Shown here: piece by piece, positions 808 through 63,127 of the stretch
Layout: each line of letters opens with the position of its first letter
How positions within the stretch are numbered: the first letter of the stretch is position 1
Assembly (NCBI GenBank): GCA_003171335.1
Contig: PMYD01000040.1
Span: 1 to 64,000 of the forward strand
Reading direction: 5' to 3'
Origin: Phycisphaerales bacterium
GTDB lineage: Bacteria > Planctomycetota > Phycisphaerae > SM23-33 > FEN-1343
DNA: 64,000 nucleotides
Notes under the pieces: generated by a model
The model's database searches: none
Told to the model about the DNA's origin: nothing
The model's input: the letters and a program-made list of their open reading frames with translations, nothing else
Translations under genes and position numbers: made by a program

Positions 808-926
808 GAATTGCCAATTGCCAATTGCAAATTGCCGATTGAAAAACGAGGAGGGGCGGCCCGTGCTGCGAAAACCCTCGCCGAAGTTCCCCAATTTGCA
901 ATTTGCAATTTGAAATTGGCAATCCC
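808..926. repeat. Inverted pair of CAATTTGCAATT word repeats
   Basis: Two arms built from iterated AATTGCCAATTGC-type words (about 808-845 and 889-926) face each other across a GC-rich spacer of about 45 bases. The left arm reads ATTGCCAATTGCAAATTG; the right arm is its approximate reverse complement. A further fragment of the right-arm type opens the window at 1-20. This is one of several such pairs in the window (compare 32828-32990 and 34096-34215). Confidence 0.7.
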
Positions 927-983
927 GTTCAGGATTCGCGCCCGTTGGCAACCGTTAGTCCGTCCGATACACTCGGATTCATC

Positions 984-1056
984 GGGCCCATAGCTCAATT
1001 GGCAGAGCAGCGGACTCATAATCCGTTGGTTGGAGGTTCGAGTCCTCCTGGGCCCA
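984..1056 (+). tRNA. tRNA with CAU anticodon, probably tRNA-Ile2 (lysidine type)
   Basis: A full 73-nt cloverleaf can be folded by eye. It has acceptor GGGCCCA/TGGGCCC with A73, D-stem GCTC/GAGC, anticodon stem GCGGA/TCCGT with loop CTCATAA (anticodon CAT at 1017-1019), a five-base variable loop, and T-arm GGAGG-TTCGAGT-CCTCC. CCA is not encoded. The stem carries C4-G69 and C5-G68, the pairs known as positive determinants for TilS, so Ile2 is favoured over elongator Met. The lack of initiator features (paired 1-72, no GGG/CCC anticodon stem) excludes fMet. Confidence 0.9.
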
Positions 1057-15967: not shown

Positions 15968-16849
15968 ATGCGACGGCTGTGTGATCTTCACGCCCATTCG
16001 ACCTGTAGCGACGGCACGTTGCCTCCGGGGGAGGTGGTTCGCCTGGCGGACCGTCGGCAGTTGGCCGGCGTGGCGCTGACCGACCACGACACGATCGACG
16101 GCCTGGCCGAGGCCGCCGCCGCCGCGGGCGAGTTTCCGGAACTCACGTTCGTGAGCGGCGTGGAGCTCTCGGCTGTCGCCCCGCAAGGCACGCTGCACGT
16201 GCTGGGGCTGGGCATCGATCCGGCGGCCACCTCGCTGGTCCACCTGCTGGGCCAGCTCGTCCAGGCCCGCAACGATCGCAACCCCCAGATGATCGCCCGC
16301 CTCCAGTCCCTGGGGCTCAAGATCGACATGGACGAAGTCCGCCGGGCCGCCGAAGGCCCCCTGCCGCCCGCGCCGGGCGCCCCGCCGGCGGTCGTCGGCC
16401 GCGTGCACATGGCCGAGGTGCTGGTGCACAAGGGCTATGTCCGCACGATCGAGGAGGCCTTCGATCGCTTTCTTGCCGAGGGCCGGCCGGCCTATGTCGA
16501 CAAGGAGCGGCTCTCGCCGCGGGCCCTCGCCGACGCCATCCACGCCGCCGGCGGGCTGGCCATCATCGCCCACCCGGTGCAACTGGGCTTCGAAAATTAT
16601 GCCCAGGCCCAGCGGCTCATTCGGCTGCTGGTCGAGCAAGGCCTCGATGGCCTGGAGGTCTATCACAGCGACCACGGCGCCGCCCTGACGCGGTTCTTCC
16701 TGGACCTGGCCAAGCGGTTCAACCTGGCCATCAGCGGCGGCAGCGACTTCCACGGCCGCATCAAGCCGCACGTTCAATTGGGCCGCCCGCGCGTGCCGGT
16801 GGAAGTGCTAAGAGAGCTGCAGCGGCGACTGGCCTGTAAAAATAGTTGA
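15968..16849 (+). CDS. PHP-domain phosphoesterase (RNase AM / YciV-like)
   Basis: 293 residues. The PHP metal ligands are visible: DLHAHSTCSDGT (residues 6-17), LTDHDTIDG, GVELSA, an AHP motif in AIIAHPVQ, the H in VYHSDHG, and the C-terminal SGGSDFHG. The inserted segment between ~85 and 165, with VVGRVHMAEVLVHKGYV, matches the YciV subfamily, which acts as a 3',5'-nucleoside bisphosphate phosphatase and 5'-3' exoribonuclease. The exact substrate here is inferred from subfamily resemblance. Confidence 0.85.
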   Translation: MRRLCDLHAHSTCSDGTLPPGEVVRLADRRQLAGVALTDHDTIDGLAEAAAAAGEFPELTFVSGVELSAVAPQGTLHVLGLGIDPAATSLVHLLGQLVQARNDRNPQMIARLQSLGLKIDMDEVRRAAEGPLPPAPGAPPAVVGRVHMAEVLVHKGYVRTIEEAFDRFLAEGRPAYVDKERLSPRALADAIHAAGGLAIIAHPVQLGFENYAQAQRLIRLLVEQGLDGLEVYHSDHGAALTRFFLDLAKRFNLAISGGSDFHGRIKPHVQLGRPRVPVEVLRELQRRLACKNS

Positions 16850-16857
16850 AATTCCTC

Positions 16858-16885
16858 TTGCGGAAGTCAGCCTTTCGGCTATAAT
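16858..16885 (+). promoter_or_regulatory. Candidate promoter with perfect TATAAT before an AT-rich region
   Basis: TTGCGG (16858-16860 plus 16861-16863) and TATAAT (16880-16885), spacing 16. No convincing gene follows for 400 bases, so it would drive either a long murI leader or a small RNA. Confidence 0.45.
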
Positions 16886-17300
16886 ACTTAGCCATATGCA
16901 ACGAGGGCTTTACAACAATCTGCTTGCCGCTGCGGATTTGTTTATCTTCTCGGCACCATGTTGGCACACTTCTCATGACACGGAAACAGCCGTCGCATGT
17001 GAAAATAGGCAAGTTGAGTTGACTCAAACGGGTGAATCAATGACTATTCCTTTAATGACAATGACTTACGGTGACTCAAGCCTTTGACTCAGTGACTATT
17101 CCTTTAATGACAAGGGTTTAGGGTGACTCAAGCGTTTGAATCCGTGACTATTAAGTGACTATTCCTTAAATGACAATAACTTATGGTGACTCAAGCCCTG
17201 TATCAGGAATTCAGGGTCCTGCAAGCAGAATCGAGCATCTACCGTTCCTTTTAGTTTCTTTCTTTCGCCGCCGCCGGCGTGGGGTATCATAGTCGTCTGC
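16886..17300 (+). repeat. AT-rich non-coding island with 52-bp TGACTATTCC / TGACTCAAGC repeats
   Basis: Three imperfect units begin at 17041, 17093 and 17145 (period 52). Each has TGACTATTCCTTTAATGACA near the start and GGTGACTCAAGC near the end. The third holds an extra 11-base duplication, restarting TGACTATTCC at 17156. A TTGACTCAAACG precursor lies near 17019. Base composition is clearly less GC-rich than flanking genes. The 63-aa frame at 16896 has no ribosome site and is not called. Confidence 0.75.
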
Positions 17301-18134
17301 ATGGAGGCAGATCGGCAAAACGGATGCATTGGTGTCTTTGACAGTGGCCTGGGCGGCCTGACGGTCGTGCGCCGGCTGATGGCGGAATTGCCCGGTGAGG
17401 ACATTGTCTACCTCGGCGACTGCGCCCGCGTGCCCTACGGCACCAAGAGCCCCGAAACGATCCGCGCGTTCGCCCGGCAGGATGCCGACTTCCTCATGAA
17501 GTTCGATCCCAAGCTCATCGTGGTGGCCTGCAACACGGCTAGCGCGCATGCCCTCGATGCACTGTCGGCGGCGCTGCCGGTCAGCGTGATCGGAATGGTC
17601 GAGCCGGGTGCCCGCCTGGCGGTCACGTTCGCCGGCCCCGGGCCCATCGGCGTCATCGCCACGGAGGCGACCATCAGTTCGCAGGCCTACCCGCGGATGC
17701 TCGAACGCCTCCAGCCCGGCTGCAAGGTGTTGAGCGCCGCCTGCCCGCTGCTGGTGCCCATTGTCGAGGAAGGCCGCGGCGAAGATGACCCGATCGTGCT
17801 GGCGGTGCTGTCGGATTATCTCCGCCAGATGCAGCGCGAGCGGCCGACAACGCTGATCCTGGGCTGCACGCACTACCCGCTGCTTTCGGGCGCCATCGGC
17901 AAGCTGATGGGTCCGGCCACGCGGCTCATCGACAGCGGCTGGGCGGCGGCCCTGGCGGTCAAGCGGCAATTGACACAGAGCCACCTGGCCCGCGCTGCAG
18001 GCGGGGGCGGGACGTTAAAATGCTTCGCCACGGACAACCCGCAGCGGCTCTCGCTGCTGGCCCAGAGAATCATGGGGCGGGCGGTCGAAGTGAACTGGGT
18101 GGGAACGGATGAACTGACATGCGAAAAGGTTTGA
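17301..18134 (+). CDS. murI: Glutamate racemase
   Basis: 277 residues; it makes D-glutamate for peptidoglycan, so its presence argues for a peptidoglycan-type wall. Both catalytic cysteines are present in canonical settings: VVACNTAS (Cys77) and LILGCTHYP (Cys189), with N-terminal GVFDSGLGGLTV and LGDCARVPYG. The start codon follows GGGGTATCATAGTCGTCTGC; no strong ribosome site is seen. The end overlaps the next gene by 16 bases, indicating translational coupling with the lipoprotein. Confidence 0.96.
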   Translation: MEADRQNGCIGVFDSGLGGLTVVRRLMAELPGEDIVYLGDCARVPYGTKSPETIRAFARQDADFLMKFDPKLIVVACNTASAHALDALSAALPVSVIGMVEPGARLAVTFAGPGPIGVIATEATISSQAYPRMLERLQPGCKVLSAACPLLVPIVEEGRGEDDPIVLAVLSDYLRQMQRERPTTLILGCTHYPLLSGAIGKLMGPATRLIDSGWAAALAVKRQLTQSHLARAAGGGGTLKCFATDNPQRLSLLAQRIMGRAVEVNWVGTDELTCEKV

Positions 18135-21395: not shown

Positions 21396-21501
21396 GTGAC
21401 AACCGTTGTCACCCGATGGCCGCCGGCAACTTTAAACCGTTTAAAGTACGGTTGGTCTTTGTTAGGCAATGGGCTGCGCTCAATTGACTAACCGTTGTCA
21501 G
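21396..21501. promoter_or_regulatory. Palindrome cluster: GTGACAAC-C-GTTGTCAC and ACTTTAAAC-C-GTTTAAAGT
   Basis: A perfect 17-base palindrome at 21396-21412, a perfect 19-base palindrome at 21429-21447, and an imperfect TGACTAACCGTTGTCA at 21485-21500 lie between two converging genes. Both palindrome types recur at 52163-52390. Confidence 0.6.
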
Positions 21502-26830: not shown

Positions 26831-27283
26831 GGTGCCACTGCTGCGCTGTTTGCAGCAGTGCGCCGGCCGCAAGATCATTGCCGAAGCTTCAGCGGAACCC
26901 GCAGGACCTCTATCCTTGCCGGCCCGCACAGCGCACGGCTGCAAACAACGCAGCCGTGGCACCGTCAAACCAATCCTTACTTGTCCTGGTGCCACTGCTG
27001 CGCTGTTTGCAGCAGTGCGCCGGACGCAGGATCATCGCCGAAGGTTCAGCGGATGCCGCAGGACCTCTATCCTTGCCGGCCTCGCACAGCGCACGGCTGC
27101 AAACGACGCAGCCGTGGCACCGGCAAACCAATCCTTCCTTGTCCTGGTGCCACTGCTGCGCTGTTTGCAGCAGTGCGCCAGCCGCAAGATCATTGCCGAA
27201 ACTTCAGCGGAACCCGCAGGACCTCTATACTTGCCGGCTCGCACAGCGCACGGCTGCAAACAACGCAGCCGTGGCACCGGGAT
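26831..27283. repeat. Three tandem ~157-bp units, each a face-to-face pair of REP-like palindromes
   Basis: GGTGCCACTGCTGCGC starts units at 26831, 26989 and 27146 (periods 158 and 157). Each unit ends with the inverted element GCGCACGGCTGCAAAC.ACGCAGCCGTGGCACC. The inner spacer (AAGATCATTGCCGAAG.TTCAGCGG...) is also conserved. The array fills the 535-base gap between the transglutaminase gene and ilvN; the ORFs across it in the track are not real. Confidence 0.9.
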
Positions 27284-31882: not shown

Positions 31883-32798
31883 TCTTCACCCACGCCGCGC
31901 CCGCATGCAGCCGATAGTGCTCCTGGAAGGCCCTGCCGGCGGCGGGCGCGGCGCCTGAGTCGATCAGCGCCACGCCGGCCGCCCGAACGGCGGCCGCCAG
32001 TGCGGCGGCCATCTGCTCAAATCCTACCGGCCGGCCCAGTAATTCCCCCACCGCGGCCGAAGGCTGGATCGGATGCGAGCGGCCAAGCACGATGCTGCCA
32101 TGCTGAAGCAGGCCCGTGCGCGTTCGCCGCTGGGCGCTGCCGGCCAATTTGCCCGCGCCGGCCATCAAGTCGAACGAGGCGTGGCACGCAAAACACAGGA
32201 ACGGCCCCGTGCGGCCGGCGGCGCGCTCTCGGCCGCCGCGCAAGGCGATTCTCGCTTGTTCACCCGGTCCTTCAACTCCCGGTGCCACGGCTGTCCGCAG
32301 CCGTGCGCTCGGGCCTGCTGGGCGGGGGGAAGGTCCGGCGGAATCCTGCGCGACGTCCGTTTGCTCTTGGGCGCACAGCGCACGGCTGCGGACAGCCGTG
32401 GCACCAAGAGATGGGACCGCCGTGGCGCCCAGAGACGCGATCGCCTCGGCCACGCGGGCGTGCATCCAATGGTAAAGATCCGCCGGGCGCTGCCCCGCCA
32501 GCGGATGATCCAGCGGCAGGATCAGGCTATAGGTCAGCTCGTCGGCATGCACGATCGCCCCGCCGCCAGTGCAGCGGCGCACGACGGGTAGCGCCGAAAG
32601 GCGCTCATCGCCCAGGCGCTGCGGGTCATCAAATTTCTGGAAATACCCCAGCGACAGCGTCGGCGGCGACCAGCGATAAAGCCTCAGAATCCCCTGGTCT
32701 TTCACCTCCTCCAGCAGCGCGCCGTCGATGGCCATGTTGGTGGCCCCGTCGCGGGGAGGATCGAGGAAGAGTTGCAGTCGCCAGGGAGTGCCCGTCAT
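31875..32798 (-). CDS. Lipoate-protein ligase/LipM-like protein carrying an in-frame REP insertion
   Basis: 307 residues, BPL/LplA/LipB fold: DGATNMAIDGALLEE, RLYRWSPPTLSLGYFQ, VVRRCTGGGAIVHADELTYS, and the conserved Lys in GAGKLAGSAQRR followed by LLQHGSIVLG. Between SLGATAV (~125) and GPFLCF (~200) lies about 60 residues with no family counterpart. This stretch is encoded by two inverted GGTGCCACGGCTG palindromes (32281-32308 and 32376-32405) plus spacer, reading LGATAVRSRA and ARLRTAVAPG. The frame stays open. Function is probably octanoyl/lipoyl transfer if the loop tolerates the insert. Confidence 0.75.
   Translation of the reverse strand: MTGTPWRLQLFLDPPRDGATNMAIDGALLEEVKDQGILRLYRWSPPTLSLGYFQKFDDPQRLGDERLSALPVVRRCTGGGAIVHADELTYSLILPLDHPLAGQRPADLYHWMHARVAEAIASLGATAVPSLGATAVRSRALCAQEQTDVAQDSAGPSPRPAGPSARLRTAVAPGVEGPGEQARIALRGGRERAAGRTGPFLCFACHASFDLMAGAGKLAGSAQRRTRTGLLQHGSIVLGRSHPIQPSAAVGELLGRPVGFEQMAAALAAAVRAAGVALIDSGAAPAAGRAFQEHYRLHAGAAWVKRL
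32281..32405. repeat. REP-like inverted pair inside the lipoate-ligase-like gene
   Basis: GGTGCCACGGCTGTCCGCAG... at 32281-32308 and its reverse complement at 32376-32405 (GCGCACGGCTGCGGACAGCC...) match the palindromes flanking the RAYT at 62419. In the gene's reading direction a short SLGATAV coding duplication borders it. Confidence 0.9.
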
Positions 32799-32827: not shown

Positions 32828-32990
32828 AAAATCCCAAATCCCAAATTTCAAATCCCAAACAAATTCCAAGCACCAAATTCCAAACCCATACCGGGAACAA
32901 CCATCAGTCGGCAGGAGAATGTTTGTTCCCCTTTGGAATTTGGGATTTGGTGCTTGTTTGGAATTTGGGATTTGGAATTTGGAATTTCTT
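32828..32990. repeat. Inverted pair of AAATTCCAAATCCC word repeats
   Basis: Left arm (32828-32885) iterates AAATCCCAAATTTC-type words and ends CAAGCACCAAATTCC; right arm (32930-32990) is the reverse complement, with GGTGCTTGTTTGG. The spacer side carries TTGTTCCCCTTTGG, also found at 42124. The same element occurs at 37425-37575 and 42037-42225. Confidence 0.9.
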
Positions 32991-35562: not shown

Positions 35563-35589
35563 ATTTCAGGCCCGAAGGGCCGAAGGACG

Positions 35590-35765
35590 GTAGCCGGGGG
35601 CGTAAGCCCCCGGATCCCAAGCTGCCGATCAAGAGCCCCGGAGGGGCGACAGAAAACGAGAACAACTCTCTGCGCCGTCTTTCGCCCCTTCGGGGCTCTT
35701 GTCATTTCCGCATTGACTCCGGGGGCTTACGCCCCCGGCTACGGGCCATAGGCCCCTTCGGGGCC
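35590..35765. repeat. GGGGGCGTAAGCCCCC and CCCCGGAGGGGC palindromes in mirrored order
   Basis: GTAGCCGGGGGCGTAAGCCCCCGG near 35590 is mirrored by CCGGGGGCTTACGCCCCCGGCTAC near 35725; between them lie GAGCCCCGGAGGGGCG and CGCCCCTTCGGGGCTC, also mirrored. This fills the pyrC-pyrB gap and may stop or process the pyr transcript. Confidence 0.85.
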
Positions 35766-37368: not shown

Positions 37369-37424
37369 GAATTGAGGCAAGCGTACGGCGAGCGGCGGCG
37401 ATTTGCAAGGCGGCGTAGAGGCAA

Positions 37425-37575
37425 ATCCCAAATTCCAAATCCCAAATCCCAAACAAATTCCAAGCACCAAATTCCAAAGGGGAGCAAAAGCACGTCCAGA
37501 GCGAGCGGATGTCCCTTCCCGGGGTTTGGAATTTGGGATTTGGTGCTTGTTTGGGATTTGGAATTTGGGATTTCG
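37425..37575. repeat. Inverted pair of AAATTCCAAATCCC word repeats
   Basis: The left arm (37425-37481) and right arm (37518-37575) are near-perfect reverse complements around a ~35-base GC-rich spacer. Both contain the CAAGCACCAAA/TTTGGTGCTTG box. It lies between the pyrR start and the phosphoesterase end. Confidence 0.9.
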
Positions 37576-37590
37576 CGCTTCGGTCGCCAG

Positions 37591-41982: not shown

Positions 41983-42036
41983 AGTATGCGCCGGGGAAGC
42001 AGAGTCTGCGAATAGTGAGGATGCCACACCGGCCGA

Positions 42037-42225
42037 AATCCCAAATTCCAAATCCCAAATCCCAAACAAATTCCAAGCACCAAATTCCAATGTTCAGCGG
42101 GAAGTCTCTGCGCAACACAACCTTTTTGTTCCCCTTTGGGATTTGGAGCCCTTCGGCGGTGAGCCGCTCAGGGCGGTCGAACCGCTTGTTTGGGATTTGG
42201 AATTTGGGATTTGGGATTTGCCGGC
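42037..42225. repeat. Inverted pair of AAATTCCAAATCCC word repeats with an inserted segment
   Basis: Left arm 42037-42092 and right arm 42124-42225. The right arm is interrupted by about 45 GC-rich bases (GAGCCCTTCGGCGGTGAGCC...) before resuming at TTGTTTGGGATTTGG. TTGTTCCCCTTTGG lies at the arm boundary, as at 32929. Confidence 0.85.
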
Positions 42226-44270: not shown

Positions 44271-44446
44271 GGGTGCCACGGCTGCGTCGTTTGCAGCCGT
44301 GCGCCGTGCTCGCGACATAAGGGAGGCGGTGCCAAGGCAGCGGCTTAAGCTGCTCCCCGGCCAACCCTTGCCCCGCTTCCGTGGCACCGTTGTGCCTTAT
44401 GGCCGCTTCCGGCGCACGGCCGCAGACCACGCGGCCGTGGCACCAT
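44271..44446. repeat. Inverted REP-like GTGCCACGGCTGCG pair
   Basis: GGTGCCACGGCTGCGTCGTTTGCAGC... at 44274-44310 and the inverted GGCGCACGGCCGCAGACC...GGTGCCAC-type element at about 44413-44445, with a partial GTGGCACCGTTGTGCC between. This is the same family as the RAYT flanks at 55749 and 56515. The remaining bases of 44063-44458 show no gene. Confidence 0.85.
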
Positions 44447-52268: not shown

Positions 52269-52420
52269 AACTTTAAACGGTTTAAAGTTGGAGGATTCGG
52301 CCCTAACAAAACCTGACCGTACTTTAAACGGTTTAAAGTTGGAGGAATTCCATAACAGAACCCGACCCACCTTTAAACGGTTTAAAGGTGACCCGATCGC
52401 CCTAACGTGCACCGACCAGC
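52269..52420 (+). promoter_or_regulatory. Three ~50-bp units with an ACTTTAAACGGTTTAAAGT palindrome
   Basis: Perfect palindromes at 52269-52289, 52321-52339 and 52368-52390 have centres 51 and 49 bases apart. Each is followed by similar sequence (TTGGAGGATTC / TTGGAGGAATTC, then TAAC..AACC.GACC). The array ends at the start codon of the next gene. One copy of the palindrome (with C centre) is at 21429-21447. Confidence 0.75.
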
Positions 52421-55748: not shown

Positions 55749-55783
55749 GGTGCCACGGCTGCGTTGTCTGCAGCCGTGCGCCG
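55749..55783. repeat. REP-like element, left flank of the second RAYT
   Basis: GGTGCCACGGCTGCGTTGTC-TGCAGCCGTGCGC; the inverted mate is at 56515-56548 with the RAYT gene between. Confidence 0.92.
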
Positions 55784-55832
55784 TGCCCTCGCCCACGCGA
55801 CAGTTCCCGTGGAACCAACTGGCGCTGTGCTC

Positions 55833-56405: not shown

Positions 56406-56514
56406 GCGTGCAAGGATATCGCCCGCGAGAACGCCGTCAAGTTCAACACTCTGCGCCTGGGCAGTCGAAAGATCGATCCGGTTCCATCGAACCTCTGGCG
56501 GTATCGAGCGGCAC

Positions 56515-56548
56515 GGCGCACGGCTGCAAACGACGCAGCCGTGGCACC
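56515..56548. repeat. REP-like element, right flank of the second RAYT
   Basis: GGCGCACGGCTGCAAACGAC-GCAGCCGTGGCACC, reverse complement of the element at 55749; a few bases (stem loop) differ. Confidence 0.92.
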
Positions 56549-62329: not shown

Positions 62330-62343
62330 GAGGGACTAGGAAT

Positions 62344-62371
62344 GGTGCCACGGCTGTCCGCAGCCGTGCGC
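62344..62371. repeat. REP-like element, left flank of the third RAYT
   Basis: GGTGCCACGGCTG-TC-CGCAGCCGTGCGC, inverted mate at 63100-63127; identical in core to the pair inside the lipoate-ligase-like gene. Confidence 0.92.
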
Positions 62372-62418
62372 TGTGCGATCAGCCGTATTAGAGGTCGGAT
62401 GGTATGAGGTTCCAACCC

Positions 62419-62991: not shown

Positions 62992-63099
62992 TCGCCTGAA
63001 GATAACCAGTGAGGGCGGAGGGTCAAGTGCATCCTAAAGTCAGATGATCGGGGGGTCTTTCAGATTCCTTCGGACCTCATCTTTTTGGCGCTCTCCACA

Positions 63100-63127
63100 G
63101 CGCACGGCTGCGGACAGCCGTGGCACC
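63100..63127. repeat. REP-like element, right flank of the third RAYT
   Basis: GCGCACGGCTGCG-GACAGCCGTGGCACC, reverse complement of 62344-62371. Confidence 0.92.

Follow-up and report, generated by a model that had tools for sequence, protein, structure and literature searches.

A four-copy family of promoter-plus-repeat loci, possibly small non-coding RNA genes, in a Phycisphaerales genome

Introduction

CsrB and RsmZ are sponge RNAs, which are made as standalone transcripts and in which a short repeated motif binds one protein many times; in CsrB, the repeats are GGA motifs located in hairpin loops. REP and BIME elements typically reach copy numbers of over 100. Like the REPINs, these are intergenic palindromic units that are dispersed and arranged in mosaics (PMC2817692, PMC3116915). 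The antitoxins of type III toxin-antitoxin systems also consist of repeated RNA (PMC8860590, PMC4627078), and the known biology of the DNA methylase CcrM is that of the Alphaproteobacteria (PMC3973325, PMC3667746). In the lineage studied here, for which the gene content and the presence of dockerin-like motifs point to the Planctomycetota, small RNAs and intergenic repeats have barely been charted.

Here, we describe a repeat locus upstream of murI in a Phycisphaerales bacterium, identified in a 64,000-nucleotide stretch of contig PMYD01000040.1 (the window, to which positions refer unless another contig is named), along with its relatives in the same genome, a metagenome-type assembly of 4.2 Mb in 169 contigs. 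The evidence base is the sequence of this one genome.

The locus upstream of murI

The locus lies between a gene for a PHP-domain phosphoesterase (3',5'-nucleoside bisphosphate phosphatase / RNase Rnm-like; 15968..16849, forward strand; Pfam PF02811, with NCBIfam NF041577 below cut-off) and murI, the gene for glutamate racemase (17301..18134, forward strand; TIGR00067 above cut-off). A preliminary description of this DNA had reported about 400 bases with no gene; the gap is indeed devoid of genes, and its true extent is 451 bp (16850-17300). Also borne out were a composition unlike that of the flanks, with a GC content of 0.39 at the repeats versus 0.63-0.75 on either side, and the presence of three direct repeats, which the repeat search placed at 17020-17071, 17072-17123 and 17135-17186. 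The reported period of 52 bp is strict for the first pair, whereas the third copy follows at a spacing of 63, out of register because 11 bases (TGACTATTAAG) are inserted in the second linker. Identity is 81% for the second repeat and 63%, ungapped, for the third. The motif TGACTATTCCTTWAATGACAA is present three times in the gap (17041, 17093 and 17156), and the heptamer TGANTCA six times in 186 bp, as compared to an expected 0.07.

Delimited by these heptamers, unit 1 (TGAATCA-ATGACTATTCCTTTAATGACAATGACTTACGG-TGACTCA) spans 17033..17078 and unit 2 spans 17085..17130, while unit 3 (17156..17193) is without the left TGANTCA and 11 nt out of register. All three are on the forward strand and were recovered by both the repeat search and the unit models, with unit 3 also seen in the alignment; in a search of the window with the core model, they scored E-values of 1.7e-8, 1.2e-6 and 8.7e-8. 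The array is preceded on the same strand by a conserved box (ATGTGAAAATAGGCAAGTTGAGTTGACTCA, 16997..17026), by a leader of variable sequence (16899..16996) with low identity and inconsistent open frames across copies, and by a probable start region (ACTTAGCCATATG, 16886..16898) that has exactly three occurrences in the genome, all at members of this repeat family. The promoter had been described as perfect, which holds for the -10 box TATAAT (16880..16885), the only case of TTG-N16..18-TATAAT in the window. The -35 hexamer TTGCGG (16858-16863), within the conserved upstream part AATTCCTCTTGCGG (16850..16863), is weak, with 3/6 matches to the consensus, and was not flagged by a consensus promoter scan. 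A search for an intrinsic terminator at the 3' end of the element found none.

Paralogous loci in the genome

A pattern search of the whole genome for the repeat core, allowing at most 3 mismatches, returned only the window and the loci C139 and C150, and a sequence-only model of the units added a fourth locus on C68. Model R2, which combines the conserved box and the first unit, ranked exactly four loci across the whole genome (E 2e-25 to 6e-24), with E-values of about 2e-25 to 3e-24 for the three full paralogues besides the window. Matches to TGACTATTCC at C35 and C75 were excluded, since they sit in other, apparently coding, sequence. The layout is common to all four loci: a sigma-70-type promoter, a leader, the box, and then two to three units of about 50 bases, with two units following the box in the paralogues and the third present only in the window.

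In 4/4 loci, the promoter has the orientation of the box and precedes it by 140-161 nt, and the distance from the -10 element to the box, counted by eye, is about 114 nt in the window versus 131-135 nt in the other three. The -35 hexamers are TTGCGG (window), TTGTCA, TTGCCG and TTGACA, and the -10 boxes of the paralogues, at a spacing of 16-17, are TATAAT (C139), TATGAT (C150) and TAATAT (C68). A sequence AATYCC..CTTG in the upstream part of the promoter is kept in all four. The promoter-to-start block TATAATGCTTAGCCATATG has three matches in the genome (at most 3 mismatches), all of them at the repeat family, and TAT(A/G)ATNCKTAGCCATATG is restricted in a genome search to three of the four loci; at C68, the corresponding position is taken by a separate TTGACA-N17-TAATAT. 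The leaders are 98-130 nt long and show no sequence conservation between the four loci, whereas the box has the consensus TGTKAAAATRGGCAAsyTGAGTTGAMTCA. The units follow the pattern TGANTCA-TGACTATTCCTT..KACAA..ACTTAYGG-TGANTCA or, in finer detail, TGANTCA-n-TGACT(ATT|CAA)CCTTnnnTnACAAnnACTTAYGG-TGANTCA. Motifs are homogeneous within a copy, the window having mostly TGACTCA with AATGACA, and C139 and C150 mostly TGAATCA with AATTACA. The four loci are thus paralogues in which both promoter and layout are conserved.

The genes next to the four elements differ. The window element precedes murI and the C139 element precedes a gene of the GH20 family, both pointing at a downstream gene 50-100 bp away. 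These two loci would fit a regulatory 5' leader of unusual length, belonging to murI in the window and to the GH20 gene at C139, but we regard this explanation as very improbable. The C150 element extends as far as the stop codon of a small convergent gene (read by eye) and the C68 element points toward the 3' end of tgt, so these two are not 5' UTRs; the downstream genes are unrelated, and a riboswitch match is absent. Since the downstream or facing genes differ and two are convergent, the element is not the leader of one gene type and is independent of the downstream genes. The window element, with a PHP phosphoesterase gene, a cysK-like gene and murI as neighbors, showed no replication initiator or plasmid context.

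Another explanation is that the locus works as DNA, with the TGANTCA sites serving as targets for a dimeric regulator or for a GANTC methylase. It is kept alive by the two-fold symmetry of TGANTCA, a perfect pair of half-sites with a free centre that occurs 4-10 times per element and whose halves are kept though the centre varies and for the most part does not pair in RNA. GANTC reaches 29-51 per kb in the four elements, as compared to about 2.5 per kb (157 occurrences in 63.5 kb) in the remainder of the window, and the genome encodes a beta-class adenine DNA methylase (L082 1392-2553), for which CcrM is the best solved relative (6pbd, E 6e-30). This match covers only the common catalytic core, however, so that a specificity for GANTC is putative. 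A pure array would moreover not need the promoter and the downstream box, which are conserved too, and the rest of the unit (CTATTCC, ACTTAYGG) is also kept. When read from the promoter, TGANTCA has A at its centre in 19 cases, C in 12 and T in 4, and never G, a bias which fits RNA, although it could stem from one ancestral unit. On balance, we consider a function as DNA unlikely.

Coding potential and RNA folding

An open reading frame from the ATG at 16896 (in CATATG) extends over 62, 65 and 48 codons in three copies. It was rejected as a small protein gene because the frame is not kept between copies; C150 has a different frame with respect to the conserved box, and the ATG context is missing from C68. 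No consistent protein is encoded by the four-locus family. Antisense pairing to one genomic target was also rejected, as neither strand of the genome has another near-perfect match to the core.

Folding energies of the repeats, the leaders and the whole predicted transcripts of the array loci were at chance. No compensatory change was found in the inner CCTT/AAGG hairpin, and the outer TGANTCA arms mostly mismatch at the centre. Given that no fold was found, repeated single- or double-stranded recognition by a protein would be the likeliest use of the units. The window element had no Rfam match at or above the gathering threshold (best E 0.49 in a permissive scan), and the four-locus family matches no known RNA family.

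Distribution in other genomes

No convincing copy was identified in about 930 other genomes. The element is absent from two other genomes of the same family, and the unit model found nothing significant in the order (38 genomes). Model R2 gave no significant match in the class (397 genomes) or the phylum (392 genomes); three others in each set reach an E-value of 0.01, about the number that chance predicts. The preliminary description had named the lack of a transcript and of other copies, along with absence of the repeat from close relatives, as grounds for abandoning its readings; further copies are present in the same genome and close relatives have none, which is half of that outcome. A mobile or viral origin was discarded, as phages and plasmids gave no matches and neither did IMG/VR with three patterns. 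One exact match in a Lachnospiraceae contig (L012) was set aside as a single copy without context at about chance level.

The short core model had weak matches in seven genomes of the order, 10 in all and near the number expected by chance, of which eight are within about 530 bp of contig ends. Other genomes of the order also contain the motifs AAGGACTTACG/AATGACTTACG, for the most part at contig ends (L095 299-342 (-); L091 47-68; L093 1501-1522; L094 4-25), and two of these have 20-21 of 22 bases identical to the units. Since such matches cluster at contig ends, where repeats break assemblies, distant relatives may exist in the order.

Single-unit relatives and other repeats

The core ACTTAYGGTGANTCA is also present as a single unit at five intergenic loci (C5, C56, C78, C23 and C39), here called type B to distinguish them from the type-A arrays, which gives a total of about 14 units at nine loci. 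The type-B unit is one nested palindrome, TGAATCA-AGCTTCCTTGTCAAATAAGGACTTACGG-TGATTCA, followed by ACTGACTCAGAATCAAGA. Judged as extragenic palindromes, type-B units fold better than shuffled sequences (z -3.0 for C5 and z -2.4 for C23), whereas type A is at chance and the inner stem is without compensatory change. The order of modules differs between type-B loci. In a comparison of the loops of the CCTT/AAGG stem, the inner loop reads ATTTGAC in C68 (L037:2032-2123 (-)) versus the exact reverse complement, GTCAAAT, in C5, C56 and C78 (L038:1702-1716, L039:2017-2031, L040:872-886 (-)), as if a small inversion had occurred at the inverted repeat.

These observations bear on the alternative that we are dealing with a low-copy REP/BIME- or MITE-like family that has no cellular function and was dispersed by transposition or recombination, with the type-A arrays as decayed tandem forms. 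The nested palindromes and the mosaic order of type B keep this alternative alive, and the reverse-complemented loop, the richness of the genome in intergenic repeats and the clustering of weak matches in relatives at contig ends, as repeats do, agree with it. The number of units is nevertheless far below that usual for REP sequences, and the surroundings of type A yielded no transposase, terminal repeats or target duplication. Furthermore, promoter and box are conserved between otherwise strongly diverged copies, which looks like selection. We regard a dispersed repeat as possible but doubtful.

The C23 and C39 elements have 607 bp in common at 83%. They open with a sigma-70-type promoter made up of TTGACA/TTGACG and a TATAAT 16 bases on (TTGACA-N16-TATAAT at C23), followed by a foldable 5' domain of 160-170 nt (L122:3925-4095 (-) and L121:3262-3430 (-)) with a third relative on C78 (L040:1225-1385 (+)). 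Three compensatory pairs were observed in the domain, in an alignment of three sequences only, and Rfam gave no match to it; it is a candidate for a multi-copy structured RNA.

Several other repeats were noted. The start of a RAYT-like transposase (MPRTVRTSVGGIAYHVLNRGNAR, L040 about 857-1030 (-)) seems, by eye, to be cut off at the start of a type-B unit. In the window, a REP-like palindrome (GGTGCCACGGCTGCGTnGTnTGCAGCCGTGCGCC) is present in many copies in both orientations (26831-27279, 32273-32413, 44272-44444, 55749-55786, 56491-56548, 62343-62377 and 63096-63127), a dispersed palindromic repeat around TTTAAACGGTTTAAAG has three copies (21427-21470 and 52301-52390), and repeat blocks of the AAATCCCAAATTCCAA type form inverted pairs (32829-32988, 37414-37586 and 42030-42222). 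Acido-Lenti-1 RNA scored above its gathering score at 35568-35613 (-) of the window and at L008 6693-6741 (-) and 6856-6903 (+); the match in the window is one arm of a 38-nt inverted repeat, with the other arm at 35718-35755.

Discussion

We hold with moderate confidence that the locus upstream of murI is one of four paralogous, standalone and lineage-restricted non-coding RNA genes. Transcription of four small RNA genes best explains why the leader varies freely while the promoter, the box, the orientation and the layout are conserved. Of the three readings in the preliminary description, the small-RNA gene is the favored one: four unlinked paralogues retain the promoter, the orientation and the arrangement of promoter and repeats, and for two of them a role as the leader of a downstream gene is impossible. 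A protein-binding DNA array remains a rival, and iterons found no support. The type-B relatives C23 and C39, which likewise follow a TTGACA/TATAAT promoter and a foldable 5' domain, argue for RNA genes; folds at chance, mismatched outer arms, the lack of a terminator and of a homologue outside the genome argue against them.

We infer that the loci are transcribed, that the RNA is the active form and that it binds a partner. The sigma-70-type promoter would start the RNA near 16890-16896, and the transcript would cross a copy-specific leader of about 100-130 nt into the conserved box and then two to three 50-nt units, UGANUCA ... GACUAUUCC..ACAA..ACUUAYGG-UGANUCA, with the window RNA ending near 17205. 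The repeats would most likely form a platform with several binding sites for a single partner, much as in a sponge RNA; the leaders may vary without constraint or direct each RNA to a target of its own. A more specific version is that a shared promoter and repeat scaffold carries copy-specific leaders of nearly fixed length, which aim the members at different targets, with one protein recognizing the UGANUCA/ACUUAYGG units; we think this quite improbable. If the leaders are targeting arms on a common scaffold, they would represent a new regulatory design; otherwise, the loci are a further repeat family specific to one lineage. With four copies that have promoter and repeats in common, the family is a defined target for RNA-seq and pull-down.

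The locus shares features with several known systems. As in plasmid iterons, direct repeats are in register, but the four loci are unlinked and beside housekeeping genes, with no replication gene seen at the copies, for which reason iterons of the plasmid type are unsupported. The TGANTCA of the element contains GANTC with a free centre like the sites of CcrM, whereas the element conserves seven bases plus other boxes; here, the comparison is of sequence only. With REP, BIME and REPIN sequences and their RAYTs it has in common intergenic palindromic units that are dispersed and form mosaics, and a fragment resembling a RAYT seems to lie directly next to one type-B unit. The high copy number was not found, however, the type-A units are not palindromic enough to fold, and the element includes a promoter and a box. 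The RNAs of type III toxin-antitoxin systems (ToxI, CptI) also have a promoter followed by tandem repeats of similar length, but those are near-identical, whereas the repeats in the window diverge and are irregularly spaced; no toxin gene is adjacent at the four loci, where the downstream or facing genes include murI, GH20 and tgt, and no short toxin ORF was found. In contrast to CsrB, the motif is UGANUCA/ACUUAYGG and the type-A units, folding at chance, do not form repeated hairpins, but the family resembles CsrB and RsmZ in its predicted standalone transcript, in which a repeated motif would offer one protein many binding sites.
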